Below are positions 42,311-64,000 of a stretch of 64,000 nt of DNA, one piece after another (the first letter of the stretch is position 1; the number at the start of each line of letters is the position of its first letter). The translations under genes were made by a program, and so were the position numbers. The notes beneath the pieces were generated by a model, which ran no database searches, was not told where the DNA came from, and saw nothing but the letters and a program-made list of their open reading frames with translations. Source of the DNA: Gordius sp. MW1 (taxonomy: Eukaryota; Nematomorpha; Gordioida; Gordea; Gordiidae); NCBI GenBank assembly GCA_964036665.1, contig CAXIYB010000001.1:868001-932000 (forward strand), given 5' to 3'.

Positions 42311-42579
42311 ACCGTCTGTGGGATTTTCAACACGATATAGAAGAAGAAGAAGCGTGAGTGGGCGTGAATTTTTTTTAATACCACCGTGAGTGGGCGGGCC
42401 GTGAATAAAAATTTGGGCCCGCGCCCAACATGCATACATAAACACATTGCATACATACATAAATACATTACATGGCCGTGAATAAAAATTTGGGCCCGCG
42501 CCCAACATGCATACATACATACATAAACACATTGCATACATACATAAATACATTACATACGTACATACATACCTTAGTA
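42311..42579 (+). repeat. Half cassette, left side of inversion axis
   Basis: Only the left part of a cassette: start, GAA tract, minisatellite and the first part of the microsatellite up to ACCTTAGTA, cut by the hAT terminus. It carries CACGATATAG as in copy 9 and an 8-T run in the GAATTTT tract, unlike the half cassette on the other side. The right part of this cassette is absent from the window. Confidence 0.92.
42572..42579 (+). other. 8-bp flank of hAT, left (CCTTAGTA)
   Basis: The octamer abutting the left terminal repeat is part of the normal cassette sequence and fits the nnnTAnnn target-site pattern described for Buster-type hAT elements. A normal insertion would show the same octamer in direct orientation on the right. 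Instead the right flank is its reverse complement. Confidence 0.8.
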
Positions 42580-42594
42580 CAGTGGTTCTTAACC
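42580..42594 (+). repeat. hAT terminal inverted repeat, left
   Basis: CAGTGGTTCTTAACC; it matches the right terminus at 14 of 15 positions. This is the 3' end relative to the transposase gene. Confidence 0.9.
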
Positions 42595-42605
42595 TTTTTA
42601 TACAT

Positions 42606-42646
42606 GCGACCCCCCAAATATTTTATAATTTTTTTGCGACCCCCCC
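42606..42646 (+). repeat. hAT subterminal GCGACCCCCC direct repeats
   Basis: GCGACCCCCC starts at 42606 and GCGACCCCCCC at 42636, separated by an AT-rich spacer. Related GGTCGCC (opposite strand, about 45191) lies just inside the other terminus. Repeated subterminal motifs are commonly transposase binding sites in hAT elements; binding here is inferred. Confidence 0.5.
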
Positions 42647-42740
42647 ATTTTTTTTATAATAATTTATATTTGTTAAATTATCTATTATATGATTTTTTAT
42701 TATTGTTTCATTTTATTAAATAATAAACATAAAACACAAC

Positions 42741-42746
42741 TTTATT
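42741..42746 (-). promoter_or_regulatory. Possible polyadenylation signal of the transposase gene
   Basis: AATAAA on the - strand, about 120 bases past the transposase stop codon and inside the transposon. In DNA this AT-rich the hexamer can occur by chance. Confidence 0.35.
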
Positions 42747-42789
42747 ATTTCATTATCTATTTAAAATTTAAATAGATAATGAAATAATA
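42743..42789. repeat. Perfect 23-bp inverted repeat with 1-nt spacer
   Basis: The arms at 42743-42765 and 42767-42789 are perfect reverse complements around a single A. It sits in the 3' noncoding part of the transposon, between the stop codon and the left terminus, next to the AATAAA hexamer. In RNA it would form a long AU-rich hairpin near the transcript end; in DNA it could extrude as a cruciform. Confidence 0.85.
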
Positions 42790-42864
42790 TCAACATAAAA
42801 ACTTCATAATTAAACATAAAAACAATTCATTTATAATAAAAAGGATATGCATTCGGAAATATAT

Positions 42865-44805
42865 TTAATGAGATTTCTGCTGCTGAACATCATCAACCAA
42901 TTTGTTAATTCTTGGTTCAATTGATTGTAATGCTATCCTCATGCAGGAATCTAGTCGCAATCGATTGCGTTTTTTAGTTTTTATATCCACCATAGTTGAG
43001 AAACCTTTTTCACACAAATATGTACTAGCGAAAGGCAGCAAATTTTGCATTGCTGCTGAAAATAATGGAGGATATTCTGCACGAATTTGTATCCAAACTT
43101 GCGCCAAACTTTTAGTTTTAAACAAAGATTTTAAATTACAATCATTTATTAATTCTAATAATGAATCTTCATCATCTGATGATAAATTGGTATTTTTATA
43201 ATTGTTGTATGGATCTTGAATCCAGAGTTTTGTAATGTGACCTTCATCATTAGGGAAATATTTTTCAAATTTATCAATTAATTTTAAAATATGACATTTA
43301 ATCAAGTAATTTACATTTTCTTTCTCGAATTGAAATTTTGAATCAGAGATTAGTTGTGAATAGAATGGAAACATTTCATATATATTTGAGTCTATTCTTT
43401 GAATCCATCTTTGTAATTTCATTTTCATAGCCTCAATTTTGTTATGCATAGTAAAAATATCAGATTTAGGTCCTTGCATAGATATATTCAACTGATTTAG
43501 AATTGTAAAAATATCCGCTAGATATGACAATTTAGCGACCCAATTATTGTCATCAAAATAGCTTGATAGGCTGGAGTTTTTATCATTTAAAAAAGGTTCA
43601 ACTTCCAGTCTCAATTCAAATAAACGAGTTAAGATTTTTCCTCGTGATAGCCATCTCACTTCTGTGTGAAATAAAAGAGAACTATTATCTGCGCCAACTT
43701 CTTCACAAAAAATTGAAAATAATCTTGACTTTAGTGAACTTCCTTTTATGAAATTTATAATCTTTACTGAAATTATCAAAACTTCATTCAATTCTTCACT
43801 CATTTCCTTGGAGGCTAATTGTTCCCTATGAATAAAACAATGAGTAGTTGTTATGTTTGCATGTGCAATACGTTTTATTCTTGATGTAATGCCCTTATAA
43901 CAGCCAGTCATAGAGGCAGCACCATCTGTGCAAATTCCAACACAGTTTTTCCAGAGTAAGCCATTAGTATTCAGAAAGGAATCTATTTTGTTAAATATAT
44001 TTTCACTTGTTGTATCTGTTTCTAAGTCTATGCAAAAGAGAAATTCTTCAGATATATCCATTTTTATAAAATCAATAAATCGAATGTATCCTAAGCAAAT
44101 GCTCCTGTTAGAAACATCTGTAGATTCATCTATTTGTAATGAGAACCAAGGAGAATTTTTAATATAGCCAGTTAACTGTTCCTGAAGATCATTAGCTATT
44201 AATAAAGTTCTATTATAAATTGCATCATTTGACAAAGGTATTTCTTTAATTTTGTTTGACACAAAGGGTTCAAATAGCTCTTTACAAATATTAAACATGG
44301 CAGGTTTTAATAATTCTTCGGCTATAGTAAATGGTTTTTTTGCTTTTGCAATGTACAAAGCTGCAATAAATGAAGCTTTTAATAAATTTTTATTGGTAGT
44401 AGTTGTCACATTTATGAGCGTCTTTTGATTTTTTAATTCATCTCTTTTTCTTATAAAAAAATCTTCCTTTTTATTTTTATATTTATCATGGTTAAGATTT
44501 AAATGCCTCCACAATTTATTAGGTTTCATTGATTCATTAGAGAGAACTACACCACATATAACACATTGTGGTTTTGTAGTTCCTCGAACTTCTATGCTTA
44601 CAAACCCATATTTAATATAATCACGATAGTATTTTCTAATTCTATTGTTACTTGATTTTATACCTTTAGTTTTAGGACTATTGGTTTTTTCCGTTTCATT
44701 TTTCGCTGTATCATCATCGGAACCTTCACTAATATTTGAAGTTCCTGGTCCGCGATTATTTAGATCAAAAAAAATTTCCAATGTTTCTTTCTGCTTTTTG
44801 CTCAT
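42865..44805 (-). CDS. hAT transposase with BED zinc finger (Buster/ZBED-like)
   Basis: A 646-residue protein predicted to cut and paste the surrounding element in the nucleus by binding its terminal repeats. Residues 1-60 are polar and probably disordered. A BED-type zinc finger follows at about 65-112, with C81, C84, H101 and H106 as ligands. The RNase H-like catalytic domain has D226 in QIDESTD and D294 in CTDGAAS as candidate first and second acidic residues. The hAT C-x2-H motif is C323/H326, with the conserved Trp in TEVRWLSRG at 385. The C-terminal dimerisation region ends in CEKGFS, where E599 is the likely third catalytic residue. The frame is open from ATG to TAA, with length normal for the family and no broken motif. 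Overall it resembles the transposases from which vertebrate ZBED5/FAM200/SCAND3-type genes derive. Activity is not shown; the residue assignments are by motif recognition. Confidence 0.93.
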   Translation of the reverse strand: MSKKQKETLEIFFDLNNRGPGTSNISEGSDDDTAKNETEKTNSPKTKGIKSSNNRIRKYYRDYIKYGFVSIEVRGTTKPQCVICGVVLSNESMKPNKLWRHLNLNHDKYKNKKEDFFIRKRDELKNQKTLINVTTTTNKNLLKASFIAALYIAKAKKPFTIAEELLKPAMFNICKELFEPFVSNKIKEIPLSNDAIYNRTLLIANDLQEQLTGYIKNSPWFSLQIDESTDVSNRSICLGYIRFIDFIKMDISEEFLFCIDLETDTTSENIFNKIDSFLNTNGLLWKNCVGICTDGAASMTGCYKGITSRIKRIAHANITTTHCFIHREQLASKEMSEELNEVLIISVKIINFIKGSSLKSRLFSIFCEEVGADNSSLLFHTEVRWLSRGKILTRLFELRLEVEPFLNDKNSSLSSYFDDNNWVAKLSYLADIFTILNQLNISMQGPKSDIFTMHNKIEAMKMKLQRWIQRIDSNIYEMFPFYSQLISDSKFQFEKENVNYLIKCHILKLIDKFEKYFPNDEGHITKLWIQDPYNNYKNTNLSSDDEDSLLELINDCNLKSLFKTKSLAQVWIQIRAEYPPLFSAAMQNLLPFASTYLCEKGFSTMVDIKTKKRNRLRLDSCMRIALQSIEPRINKLVDDVQQQKSH

Positions 44806-45199
44806 AATATGGAATATAATAACTATTTAAAATGAACAAACAATATAAGAAATAATGCACTATTTTGCGATCCAAAGTCTGTGGTGAGAAGTTCGCTTTA
44901 TTTTTAAATTTCAGAAGTTAAATTTGTTGAATTGTAAAATTAAATGAAGATAATTATTTTAAAGATTAGAAAATGAATAAATTATGAAACAGCAAAAAAA
45001 TCTACCATTCAAAAAATTATTTTCATTATAAATAATAAGTTTCACAACGTATTTTAATAGCAGCATGGTGTGAGTGGTTATAGCGACGTCTTGTAAATGT
45101 AAACAAACATAATGCAACGAGTTCGAATCCCAAGGTGAGTATTTTTTCTAAAGCTTTTCTGAATATTTTTATTTTATTCTAAAAAAATTTGGCGACCTA
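44806..45199 (-). other. hAT 5' noncoding region
   Basis: AT-rich leader between the transposase start codon and the right terminus. It should contain the promoter, but no TATA box can be singled out in such AT-rich sequence. A tRNA-like stretch with a B box lies at 45062-45147. No other gene is seen. Confidence 0.6.
45062..45147 (+). pseudogene. Degenerate tRNA-like segment with Pol III A/B boxes
   Basis: TGGTGTGAGTGG (45066-45077) resembles an A box and GTTCGAATC (45121-45129) is a perfect B-box match. A T6 run at 45142-45147 would end a Pol III transcript. An anticodon-like arm can be drawn: ACGT and ATGT pair around a 7-nt loop CTTGTAA, anticodon TGT if real. The T stem pairs poorly and no acceptor stem forms, so this is not a functional tRNA gene. 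It may be a tRNA or SINE relic captured by the transposon, read against the transposase gene. Confidence 0.35.
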
Positions 45200-45214
45200 G
45201 GTTAAGAATCACTG
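45200..45214 (-). repeat. hAT terminal inverted repeat, right
   Basis: Reads CAGTGATTCTTAACC on the - strand, one mismatch from the left terminus. This is the 5' end relative to the transposase gene. Confidence 0.9.
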
Positions 45215-45222
45215 TACTAAGG
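45215..45222 (-). other. 8-bp flank of hAT, right (TACTAAGG, inverted)
   Basis: Exact reverse complement of the left flank CCTTAGTA. Beyond it the cassette continues in reverse (GTATGTATGTACGTATG), so both sides of the transposon carry the same half of a cassette in opposite orientation. Confidence 0.9.
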
Positions 45223-45484
45223 TATGTATGTACGTATGTAATGTATTTATGTATGTATGCAATGTGTTTATGTATGTATGTATGCATGTTGGGCGCGGGC
45301 CCAAATTTTTATTCACGGCCATGTAATGTATTTATGTATGTATGCAATGTGTTTATGTATGCATGTTGGGCGCGGGCCCAAATTTTTATTCACGGCCCGC
45401 CCACTCACGGTGGTATTAAAAAAAAATTCACGCCCACTCACGCTTCTTCTTCTTCTTTATCGTGTTGAAAATCCCACAGACGGT
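45215..45484 (-). repeat. Half cassette, right side of inversion axis
   Basis: Reverse-oriented left half of a cassette, the same half as at 42311-42579. It has CACGATAAAG rather than CACGATATAG and a nine-base T-run. The satellite beyond it lacks the ACCAATTTAG monomers, as also after the cassette ending at 61208. It is therefore related to that copy and not to the left half cassette. Confidence 0.92.
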
Positions 45485-60350: not shown

Positions 60351-61208
60351 AATATTTCTCTGTTTATCTATAAATCCCCCCCCTCACTACGCTACTGGGT
60401 AAAACATACGTTCAATTTCACATAATTTTTAATTTTATGACAACGCATTTATTCATTGTTTTTTTAGTTTCCTCCAATGAATCTTAGAATTTACAATACA
60501 TCATAATTTTGGCCATATTTTTCAATCAAAGATTTAGTACTTACAACCATGGTTTCAGATATACATCGGCAAATTTCAACAAAAAATATGTAATTCTCTT
60601 TATAATCAAAAATTATTAACTTAAAAAAAATCTAAATTAAAACAAATAATAGATGGCGGTATAAAAGATTGAACTTAAGACTTCATATAGCTTCGAAATA
60701 TGATGAAGACGAATAATAAAAGTAAAATTATGTGTAAAATGTAAAAATAATGATTTATTTATTTGTGTATACCACATTTAAAGATCCATAAAATAAATTT
60801 GGCACAATCATTCTTAGCCACCATGAATTAGATATGCAAAATATCCTTATATATAGCTATCTTCTACATATATATGTATGTATACAATGTATTTATGTAT
60901 GTTGCAATGTATTTATGTATGCAATGTATGTATGTATGTACTAAGGTATGTATGTACGTATGTAATGTATTTATGTATGTATGCAATGTGTTTATGTATG
61001 TATGTATGCATGTTGGGCGCGGGCCCAAATTTTTATTCACGGCCATGTAATGTATTTATGTATGTATGCAATGTGTTTATGTATGCATGTTGGGCGCGGG
61101 CCCAAATTTTTATTCACGGCCCGCCCACTCACGGTGGTATTAAAAAAAAATTCACGCCCACTCACGCTTCTTCTTCTTCTTTATCGTGTTGAAAATCCCA
61201 CAGACGGT
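60351..61208 (-). repeat. Composite-repeat cassette, copy 15 (full, inverted)
   Basis: Complete cassette with consensus minisatellite and an eight-base homopolymer. Its downstream satellite (TTTGTTGATATTCTATAAAT, then the ATATTTTTGTGT monomer) matches that after the half cassette at 45484, making this the closest relative of the right-hand half cassette in the window. Confidence 0.9.
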
Positions 61209-62907
61209 TGATATTCGATAAATTTCTGTCTAAATTTTTTGATTATTTTTAAATTTTTGTCTAAATTTGTTGATATTCTATAAATTTCTGTCTAAATTTT
61301 TTGATTATTTTTATATTTTTGTGTAAATTTGTGGATATTCTATAAATTTCTGTCTAAATTTTTTGATTATTTTTAATTTTTGTCTAAATTTGTGTATATT
61401 CTATAAATTTCTGTCTAAATTTTTTGATTCTTTATTTCTCTCTAAATTTGAAAATATTCTATAAATTTCTGTCTAAATTTGTGGATATTCCATAAATTTC
61501 TGTCTGAATTTGTGGATATTCTATAAATTTCTGTCTAAATTTGTGGATATTCGATAAATTTCTGTCTAAATTTGTGGATATTCCATAAATTTCTGTCTGA
61601 ATTTTTTGATTATTTTTAAATTTTTGTCTAAATTTGTGGATATTCTATAAAGTTCTGTCTAAATTTGTGGATATTCTATAAATTTCTGTCTAAATTTGTG
61701 GATATTCTATAAATTTCTCTCTAAATTTGTGGATATTCTATAAATTTCTGTCTAAATTTGTGGATATTAGATAAATTTCTGTCTAAATTTTTTGATTATT
61801 TTTAAATTTTTGTCTAAATTTGTGGATATTCTATAAATTTGTGTCTAAACTTTTTGATTCTTTATAAATTTCTGTCTAAATTTGTGGATATTCTATAAAT
61901 TTCTGTCTAAATTTTTTGATTCTTTATAAATTTCTCTCTAAATTTGTGGATATTCTATAAATTTCTGTCTAAATTTTTTGATTATTTTTAAATTTCTCTC
62001 TAAATTTGTGGATATTCTATAAATTTCTCTCTAAATTTGTGGATATTCTATAAATTTCTGTCTAAATTTGTGGATATTCGATAAATTTCTGTCTAAATTT
62101 GTTGATTATTTTTAAATTTTTGTCTAAATTTGTGGATATTCTATAAATTTCTGTCTAAATTTTTTGATTCTTTATAAATTTCTCTCTAAATTTGTGGATA
62201 TTCTATAAATTTCTGTCTAAATTTGTGGATATTCGATAAATTTCTGTCTAACTTTGTGGATATTCGATAAATTCCTGTCTAAATTTTTTTGATTATTTTT
62301 AAATTTCTCTCTAAATTTGTGGATATTCTATAAATTTCTCTCTAAATTTGTGGTTTTTTTATAAATTTCTGTATAAATTTTTTGATTATTTTTAATTTTT
62401 GTCTAAATTTGTGGATATTCTATAAATTTCTGTCTAAATTTTTTGATTCTTTATAAATTTCTCTCTAAATTTGACAATATTCTATAAATTTCTGTCTAAA
62501 TTTGTGGATATTCGATAAATTTCTGTCTAAATTTGTGGATATTCGATAAATTTCTGTCTAAATTTTTTGATTATTTTTAAATTTTTGTCTAAATTTGTGG
62601 ATATTCTATAAATTTCTGTCGAAATTTGTGGATATTCGATAAAGTTCTGTCTAAATTTGTGGATATTCTATAAATTTCTCTCTAAATTTGTGGATATTCT
62701 ATAAATTCTGTCTAAATTTGTGGATATTCGATAAATTTCTGTCTAAATTTTTTGATTATTTTTAAATTTTTGTCTAAATTTGTGGATATTCTATAAATTT
62801 CTGTCTAAATATTTTGATTCTTTAGAAATTTCTCTCTAAATTTGTGGATATTCTATAAATTTCTGTCTAAATTTGTGGATATTAGATAAATTTCTGTCTA
62901 AATTTTT
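61209..62907 (-). repeat. 31-bp satellite block, inverted (1.7 kb)
   Basis: Satellite carrying the GTCTGAATTTGTGG and ATAAAGTTCTG variants and the AAATTCCTGTC marker at about 62270. No gene is seen. Confidence 0.92.
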
Positions 62908-63766
62908 AATATTTCTCTGTTTATTTATAAATCCCCCCCCCTCACTACGCTACTGGGTAAAACATACGTTCAATTTCACATAATTTTTAATTTTATGACA
63001 ACGCATTTATTCATTGTTTATTTAGTTTCCTCCAATGAATCTTAGAATTTACAATACATCATAATTTTGGCCATATTTTTCAATCAAAGATTTAGTACTT
63101 ACAACCATGGTTTCAGATATACATCGGCAAATTTCAACAAAAAATATGTAATTCTCTTTATAATCAAAAATTATTAACTTAAAAAAAATCTAAATTAAAA
63201 CAAATAATAGATGGCGGTATAAAAGATTGAACTTAAGACTTCATATAGCTTCGAAATATGATGAAGACGAATAATAAAAGTAAAATTATGTGTAAAATGT
63301 AAAAATAATGATTTATTTATTTGTGTATACCACATTTAAAGATCCATAAAATAAATTTGGCACAATCATTCTTAGCCACCATGAATTAGATATGCAAAAT
63401 ATCCTTATATATAGCTATCTTCTACATATATATGTATGTATACAATGTATTTATGTATGTTGCAATGTATTTATGTATGCAATGTATGTATGTATGTACT
63501 AAGGTATGTATGTACGTATGTAATGTATTTATGTATGTATGCAATGTGTTTATGTATGTATGTATGCATGTTGGGCGCGGGCCCAAATTTTTATTCACGG
63601 CCATGTAATGTATTTATGTATGTATGCAATGTGTTTATGTATGCATGTTGGGCGCGGGCCCAAATTTTTATTCACGGCCCGCCCACTCACGGTGGTATTA
63701 AAAAAAAATTCACGCCCACTCACGCTTCTTCTTCTTCTTTATCGTGTTGAAAATCCCACAGACGGT
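62908..63766 (-). repeat. Composite-repeat cassette, copy 16 (full, inverted)
   Basis: Last complete cassette. Private changes are CTGTTTATTTATAAATC at the satellite edge and CATTGTTTATTTAG. Nine-base homopolymer. Confidence 0.9.
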
Positions 63767-64000
63767 TGATATTCGATAAATTTCTGTCTAAATTTTTTGA
63801 TTATTTTTAAATTTTTGTCTAAATTTGTCGATATTCGATAAATTTCTGTCTAAATTTTTTGATTATTTTTAAATTTTTGTCTAAATTGGTGGATATTCTA
63901 TAAATTTCTGTCTAAATTTTTTGATTATTTTTATATTTTTGTGTAAATTTGTGGATATTCTATAAATTTCTGTCTAAATTTTTTGATTATTTTTAATTTT
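63767..64000 (-). repeat. 31-bp satellite array, right edge of window
   Basis: Inverted satellite starting with TTTGTCGATATTCG and running past the end of the window. No gene is seen. Confidence 0.93.

Follow-up and report, generated by a model that had tools for sequence, protein, structure and literature searches.

Satellite arrays can change orientation without evident cause, and one such change lies in the window analysed here, a stretch of 64,000 nucleotides from the nematomorph Gordius sp. MW1 (C9:868,001-932,000; C9, contig CAXIYB010000001.1, is 1.37 Mb long). The question raised by this locus is what turned the satellite round, and why at this particular base. The window consists mostly of a 31-bp AT-rich satellite with a cassette of ~0.82 kb every 2-11 kb; each cassette contains the 8-mer CCTTAGTA with CATA repeats on either side, and a hAT transposon sits exactly where the orientation switches. 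According to our analysis, this junction is very probably the right breakpoint of a 99.3-kb inversion within the satellite array, with hAT copies at both breakpoints. Our high confidence applies to an inversion bounded by two hATs, and not to the choice of the route by which it arose.

Orientation map and breakpoints

All 10 intact cassette sites left of the window hAT are in + orientation, and all 6 to its right are in - orientation. An initial annotation of the sequence had taken this switch for a head-to-head inversion of the whole array. The switch itself stands, but the inversion is a bounded segment of 99 kb. In the 154 kb read around the window (C9:788,001-942,000), the satellite starts near 800.9 kb. 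Its first ~8 kb, with 2 intact sites, are in - orientation and end at a first hAT; the 99,317 bp between this element and the window hAT, with 18 intact sites, are in + orientation; beyond the window hAT the array, with 9 intact sites, is again in - orientation as far as the sequence was read. The order is therefore - / + / -, and within these 154 kb the orientation switches solely at the two hATs.

The same annotation had described the window hAT as lying between two head-to-head copies of one half-cassette (half A), broken at the same base, and as flanked by 8-mers that are not a direct duplication. Both descriptions were borne out, the flanks CCTTAGTA and TACTAAGG being mutual reverse complements (Table 1), while 26 of the 28 copies fetched from outside the array have identical direct 8-bp repeats. 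A reciprocal junction, with the other half-cassette (half B) on both sides, had been suggested as a check, and it was found at C9:808,578-811,270, 102 kb from the window hAT on the same contig. It reads TACTAAGG-hAT(-)-CCTTAGTA, that is, with the element reversed. Each of the two hATs occupies the 8-bp target of a separate cassette. As in other inversions bounded by transposable elements, copies of one element stand in opposite orientation at both breakpoints. The 8-mers, TACTAAGG..CCTTAGTA and CCTTAGTA..TACTAAGG, have the arrangement of exchanged target site duplications; since one and the same 8-mer served as target at both breakpoints, this says less than it usually would. Exact cassette sites number 350 in the assembly searched (212 Mb, 12 contigs), and a hAT was found at only two.

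A single insertion into the centre of a pre-existing palindrome was considered and rejected, since direct 8-mers would be expected and no reciprocal junction is predicted.

Reconstruction of the proposed un-inverted order

If the segment is turned back, half B at 811 kb should join half A at 913 kb, and likewise the halves B and A at 808 kb and 910 kb should form one cassette. Tandem duplication in the array provides intact neighbouring units against which this order can be compared. The first of these joins, made in silico from the reverse complement of 811,263-814,383 and from 913,223-917,397, is 7.3 kb long and collinear with an intact block at 928,384-935,498, ~15 kb away. The two were aligned with 7,101 matches and 11 mismatches in 7,112 columns (gaps of 66, 62, 54, 2, 1, 1 and 1). 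The other join, 806,021-808,585 with the reverse complement of 910,312-910,571, was compared with the reverse complement of 905,696-908,519, and here 2,816 matches stand against 7 mismatches and two gaps, of 1 and 2 bases.

Among 29 spacers compared, the two that adjoin the breakpoints on the B sides are each closest to a spacer beyond the proposed inversion, in the vicinity of the opposite breakpoint: 806,837-808,022 is nearest to 906,520-907,703 (0.997; next 0.886) and 811,826-813,559 to 929,208-930,941 (0.997; next 0.842). Around the intact cassette, the consecutive spacers 929,208-930,941, 931,766-933,503 and 934,327-935,498 match, in this order, 811,826-813,559, 913,484-915,401 and 916,225-917,397 (the last at 0.997). 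The un-inverted order is thus supported, indirectly, by collinear tandem paralogues. We infer the inversion step itself from this collinearity together with the orientation map and the reciprocal junction.

The arms that meet at each axis as assembled are less alike than the rejoined halves. At the right axis they differ by 18 mismatches and 17 gap events with 320 gap bases over ~2.9 kb, and at the left axis by 24 mismatches and 15 gap events with 566 gap bases (one half is 4 bases short). A fold-back palindrome is thereby excluded, and the difference speaks for a genuine history of inversion. Snap-back synthesis at the terminal inverted repeats, copying one arm past the hAT, would yield the A-hAT-A junction from one element. 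However, the first spacers match each other at 0.80, while the left one matches units of its own side at 0.96 and the right one at 0.94, and this explanation does not predict a reciprocal junction. With arms that are not mirror copies and a reciprocal junction in place, we rejected the fold-back palindrome and give it practically no chance. The half-cassettes differ by just 0-7 events across the array, and a comparison of halves is weakly informative.

The hAT element and its family

The 15-bp ends of the window hAT are CAGTGGTTCTTAACC and GGTTAAGAATCACTG. Its terminal inverted repeats, CAGTGGTTCTTAACC against CAGTGATTCTTAACC, are identical at 14 of 15 positions and short, as in hAT elements. 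In keeping with the 8-bp duplications of this superfamily, all 26 direct-repeat 8-mers of the copies outside the array have a central TA. The Buster-like group of hAT elements follows the target rule NNNTANNN, and the central TA in 26/26 direct-repeat targets might point to this group.

The element carries an open transposase frame of 646 amino acids. Pfam matches to this frame, Dimer_Tnp_hAT at E 0.0085 and DUF4371 at E 5.8e-5, both fall under the curated cut-offs. Homologues at E <= 0.001 numbered 1,355 of the 7,983 candidates scored, the best two having 65% and 63% identity. Among the 120 homologues listed, part have a precomputed PF05699 domain and most a PF14291 domain, and we class the frame as a hAT transposase. 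A sequence search of the PDB with the transposase returned nothing at E <= 0.001.

A 31-mer inside the hAT has 76 exact matches in the genome. We aligned 30 copies, those that matched the window copy best, a choice by which divergence is under-represented; 29 are 2,677 bp long, and the window copy alone lacks 42 bp of a G+C-rich stretch near its right end and measures 2,635 bp. Between pairs of the 28 non-array copies the mean number of substitutions is 1.49 (378 pairs). The family looks young from these sequences, and it is recently active. Its copies are also clustered, with 13 pairs within 120 kb where 3.2 are expected under uniform placement, and 10 of these pairs are inverted; the pair on C9 is among the 13, as is at least one pair of nested copies. 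Two neighbouring copies in opposite orientation, L022 and L023, have a variant in common that is found in no other of the 30 aligned copies. In one further case (L015, C5:3,259,557), a hAT is nested in an opposite-orientation copy of itself, at CTCTAATG within the transposase gene. The features of the window are listed in Table 1.

Table 1. Features of the window around the hAT junction (window coordinates)
Feature	Position	Strand	Remarks
Satellite array (31-bp satellite, 0.82-kb cassettes) inside the probable inverted segment	1..42311	+	segment extends left to C9:811,263
Half-cassette A, ending in target 8-mer CCTTAGTA at 42,572-42,579	42312..42579	+	
hAT element, left to right end, 2,635 bp	42580..45214	+	
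Open frame of hAT transposase, 646 amino acids	42865..44805	-	DUF4371 and hAT dimerisation matches, below cut-off
Private variant G	43595	+	element position 1016; A in 74/76 matched copies, G only in the two C9 array copies
Site of 42-bp deletion relative to the other aligned copies	45197..45198	+	near right end
Half-cassette A, reverse complement, beginning with TACTAAGG at 45,215-45,222	45215..45483	-	former join partner presumably the half now at C9:811,263
Satellite array outside the probable inverted segment	45484..64000	-	presumably in original orientation
Window portion of intact tandem block C9:928,384-935,498	60384..64000	-	collinear with rejoined breakpoint halves

Target preference for the cassette site

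We derived a target motif that includes 10-bp flanks from the 26 insertions elsewhere that have direct repeats, pooling both strands and excluding the array copies. When the motif was scored at 153,973 positions along the 154 kb, ranks 2-30 all fell to the 29 intact cassette sites; rank 1 is position 788,091, in non-satellite DNA left of the array. With a simple exponential weighting, the 29 sites receive ~30% of the insertion weight predicted for this stretch. Two hits on the same base of a cassette are therefore unsurprising. Scored by the 8-mer without flanks, the cassette site gets no further than the top 0.6% or 1.4% of 8-mers, depending on the strand, and the gain in rank with 10-bp flanks indicates that much of the target signal lies in the flanks.

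The initial annotation had also proposed a search for cassettes with an ordinary hAT insertion and direct CCTTAGTA on both sides. A genome-wide search for the cassette 8-mer with both exact ends of the element gave none. A degenerate 8-mer beside an exact 15-base end has 13 left-end and 10 right-end matches genome-wide. Beyond the array copies, the exact cassette 8-mer occurs at C8:4.80 Mb (left end) and C6:20.95 Mb (right end), each without a mate.

Origin of the two array copies and possible routes of the inversion

The two hATs of C9 show zero substitutions in the columns common to both copies, as is also the case for 45 of 378 other pairs. They have in common a private variant (Table 1) that causes the change Leu404Pro in the transposase, and proline is present at this column in 0 of 90 aligned homologues (120 fetched). 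The change may impair the transposase of these two copies, for which other copies of the family may supply the enzyme. Based on the private variant, the two hATs are probably sisters, which disfavours independent insertions.

This bears on the origin put forward in the initial annotation, recombination between two hATs that had inserted at the cassette site in opposite orientation. The recombination is consistent with the reciprocal junction and with the collinear un-inverted order, and the target preference makes a second hit on the same site likely. Two independent insertions followed by a crossover are nevertheless unlikely, because the variant is in both copies and missing from the other 74 of the 76 matched copies. 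With this common variant and no unshared substitutions, conversion would have to be added. A crossover as such agrees with the junctions, but it is not the sole route, since one-step sister-chromatid transposition yields the same ones.

We tentatively put hybrid-element (sister-chromatid) transposition first, with a chance that we consider somewhat short of even. It would start from a single hAT in one cassette, whose halves lie today at C9:808 kb and 910 kb. Once the DNA had replicated, transposase would pair the left end of one chromatid with the right end of the other, and the paired ends would enter a further cassette at its preferred site; the halves of that cassette lie today at 811 kb and 913 kb. 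As an outcome, the intervening DNA would be flipped, with two identical hATs bounding it in opposite orientation and with the 8-mers inverted. The absence of substitutions and the private variant are what this route predicts for its two identical copies, yet the window copy has its 42-bp deletion.

Alternatively, the hAT may first have made a local hop, landing in opposite orientation at the corresponding site of another cassette, after which ectopic recombination between the sisters would have inverted the intervening DNA. We regard this as possible, with roughly one chance in three. It accounts equally for the junctions and the common private variant, and both the clustering of the family and the variant of L022 and L023 are in line with it. 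However, it requires two events, and its intermediate, an exact-ended ordinary insertion at the 8-mer, was not found in the assembly. Copy identity favours the one-step route, yet a hop with crossover is also compatible, because copies are clustered and identical pairs occur elsewhere in the family. For inversions with exchanged duplications, insertion by a hybrid element from sister chromatids resembles ectopic recombination strikingly, according to the available part of PMC2775673, where copies are identical in the first case and chimeric in the second. On C9 the copies are identical in their common columns, and the variation of the family is too low to reveal chimerism of the ectopic-recombination type. 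Newly made duplications are listed as a difference from crossover in the accessible text of PMC8225341; this test is blunt on C9 because both targets are the same 8-mer.

Several points weigh against an inversion between sister hATs. Two A-side spacers have their nearest relatives on their own side, 908,520-910,311 at 878,459-880,281 (0.962) and 913,484-915,401 at 931,766-933,503 (0.94); they are uninformative, since either order permits own-side relatives. The 0.3-0.5 kb of spacer adjoining the cassette is widely conserved across the array, so that the force of the collinearity lies in whole spacers and unit order and not in the junction. A joined query of 1,656 bases accordingly has 22 matches spanning 1-1,655 at 91-99% identity (15 of 908 candidates scored), and no allelic un-inverted copy was identified among these. 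The satellite left of the inversion extends over only ~8 kb. As to the sister relation, the 42-bp deletion distinguishes the window copy from that at the reciprocal junction, and a gene-conversion tract at the crossover could have spread the 1016 variant. Moreover, the family is nearly monomorphic, so that chimerism of the copies cannot show and identity alone is weak evidence.

The orientation of the segment depends, finally, on the assembly. Two ordinary hAT insertions in opposite orientation with the intervening segment flipped by the assembler would give the same picture, and a pair of identical 2.6-kb repeats in inverted arrangement is a well-known place for such an error. However, the half-cassettes differ right beside the hAT, so that a read slightly longer than the element decides between the joins, and more than 100 kb of 31-bp satellite were resolved, presumably by long reads. 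Because the sequences adjoining the element differ between the two possible joins, we rate a misassembly as improbable, slightly more so than independent insertions.

The inversion bounded by two hATs remains our preferred explanation, and the evidence suggests that a hAT drawn to a site present in each unit caused the flip. Satellite units that each carry the best landing site for the hAT would form a row of equal targets. It is conceivable, though we hold this a little less firmly than the sister-chromatid route itself, that a resident element used ends from both sister chromatids and flipped 99 kb in one step. If this is true, orientation switches in satellite arrays could arise repeatedly by sister-chromatid hAT transposition.

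Other candidate inversions and orientation switches

Two of the 28 non-array copies do not have identical direct repeats. One of them (L021, C7:20,365,602) has the unlike 8-bp flanks CTGTAGGA and CATTAGAA. As an inversion end, it should have a nearby opposite copy with CATTAGAA at its left end, and an analogous pattern applies to L037. The search for the flank patterns gave 7 matches, and the only one with CATTAGAA is C7:20,365,075-20,365,097, opposite to L021 and 512 bp apart. With CATTAGAA at exchanged positions, these two copies possibly mark a second, small inversion by the same hAT family. If the duplications were fully exchanged, TCCTACAG would be expected beside the right end of the left copy, on its outer side. 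The second exception (L037, C8:31,155,790) is a full-length hAT with unlike 8-bp flanks, CAGTAGAG and TACTATAC; its predicted partner, with TACTATAC beside the left end, was not found in the flank pattern search.

The same satellite shows a second orientation switch on C8 (L048:5755-8930, C8:46,755-49,930), at a 3.2-kb insert of another repeat. This insert starts inside the same cassette target, TACTA being followed by GTGTTGTAAAAACGGC. Both of its end pieces recur at 100% and with equal spacing at C9:1,140,966-1,144,141. The end pieces are same-oriented at these two places; among 26 listed loci with the two pieces close together, they face each other in 22 and do not in 4, both places included. 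The C8 array (C8:15-350 kb) is in - orientation to ~46 kb, in + orientation at every place listed between ~50 and 329 kb, and in - orientation at 349.5 kb; it seems to contain another inverted segment. The exact 31-mer of the window hAT gave no match in this array.

Comparison with known systems

For the C9 switch, the two breakpoints can be located, an agent can be named, and the choice of site can be traced to something measurable, a preferred target in the repeat unit. It raises the testable question of whether active cut-and-paste transposons shape satellite architecture via targets repeated in each unit. The near-identical sequence contexts of C9 also provide a case in which more haplotypes could separate crossover from alternative transposition. 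An inversion bounded by transposons is of a known kind; new to us is that the satellite units carry the favoured target of the transposon. In a narrow search that covered few subscription journals, we found no paper on a transposon-bounded inversion in a satellite bearing such a target.

One close likeness is to the Ac/Ds system of maize, Ac being an element of the hAT superfamily. Reversed-ends and sister-chromatid transposition of Ac/Ds, as far as described in the available parts of PMC8225341 and PMC3744419, produce inversions that have an element at both breakpoints and show 8-bp target duplications where the junctions lie, as on C9. Maize inversions are attributed to alternative transposition of Ac (PMC8225341). 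In maize the progenitor alleles are known (PMC8225341, PMC3744419, in the same parts), whereas the C9 event is deduced from one assembly and concerns a satellite array and a different hAT.

The Galileo inversions of Drosophila buzzatii (2j, 2q7 and 2z3) likewise have two opposite copies of one DNA transposon at their breakpoints, according to the accessible text of PMC2775673. Inversion 2z3 also has exchanged target site duplications, as on C9; its copies are described there as chimeric and its breakpoints lie in single-copy sequence, whereas the C9 copies are identical. Galileo belongs to the P superfamily, while the C9 element is a hAT and both breakpoints are at the same base of a satellite cassette. 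In the hybrid insertion of the Drosophila P element, as summarized in the same portion of PMC2775673, ends from sister chromatids or homologues insert jointly and leave an inversion flanked by two identical copies, which is like the situation on C9. That element is of the P superfamily and the summary describes no satellite array, whereas on C9 it is a hAT that bounds the inverted segment.

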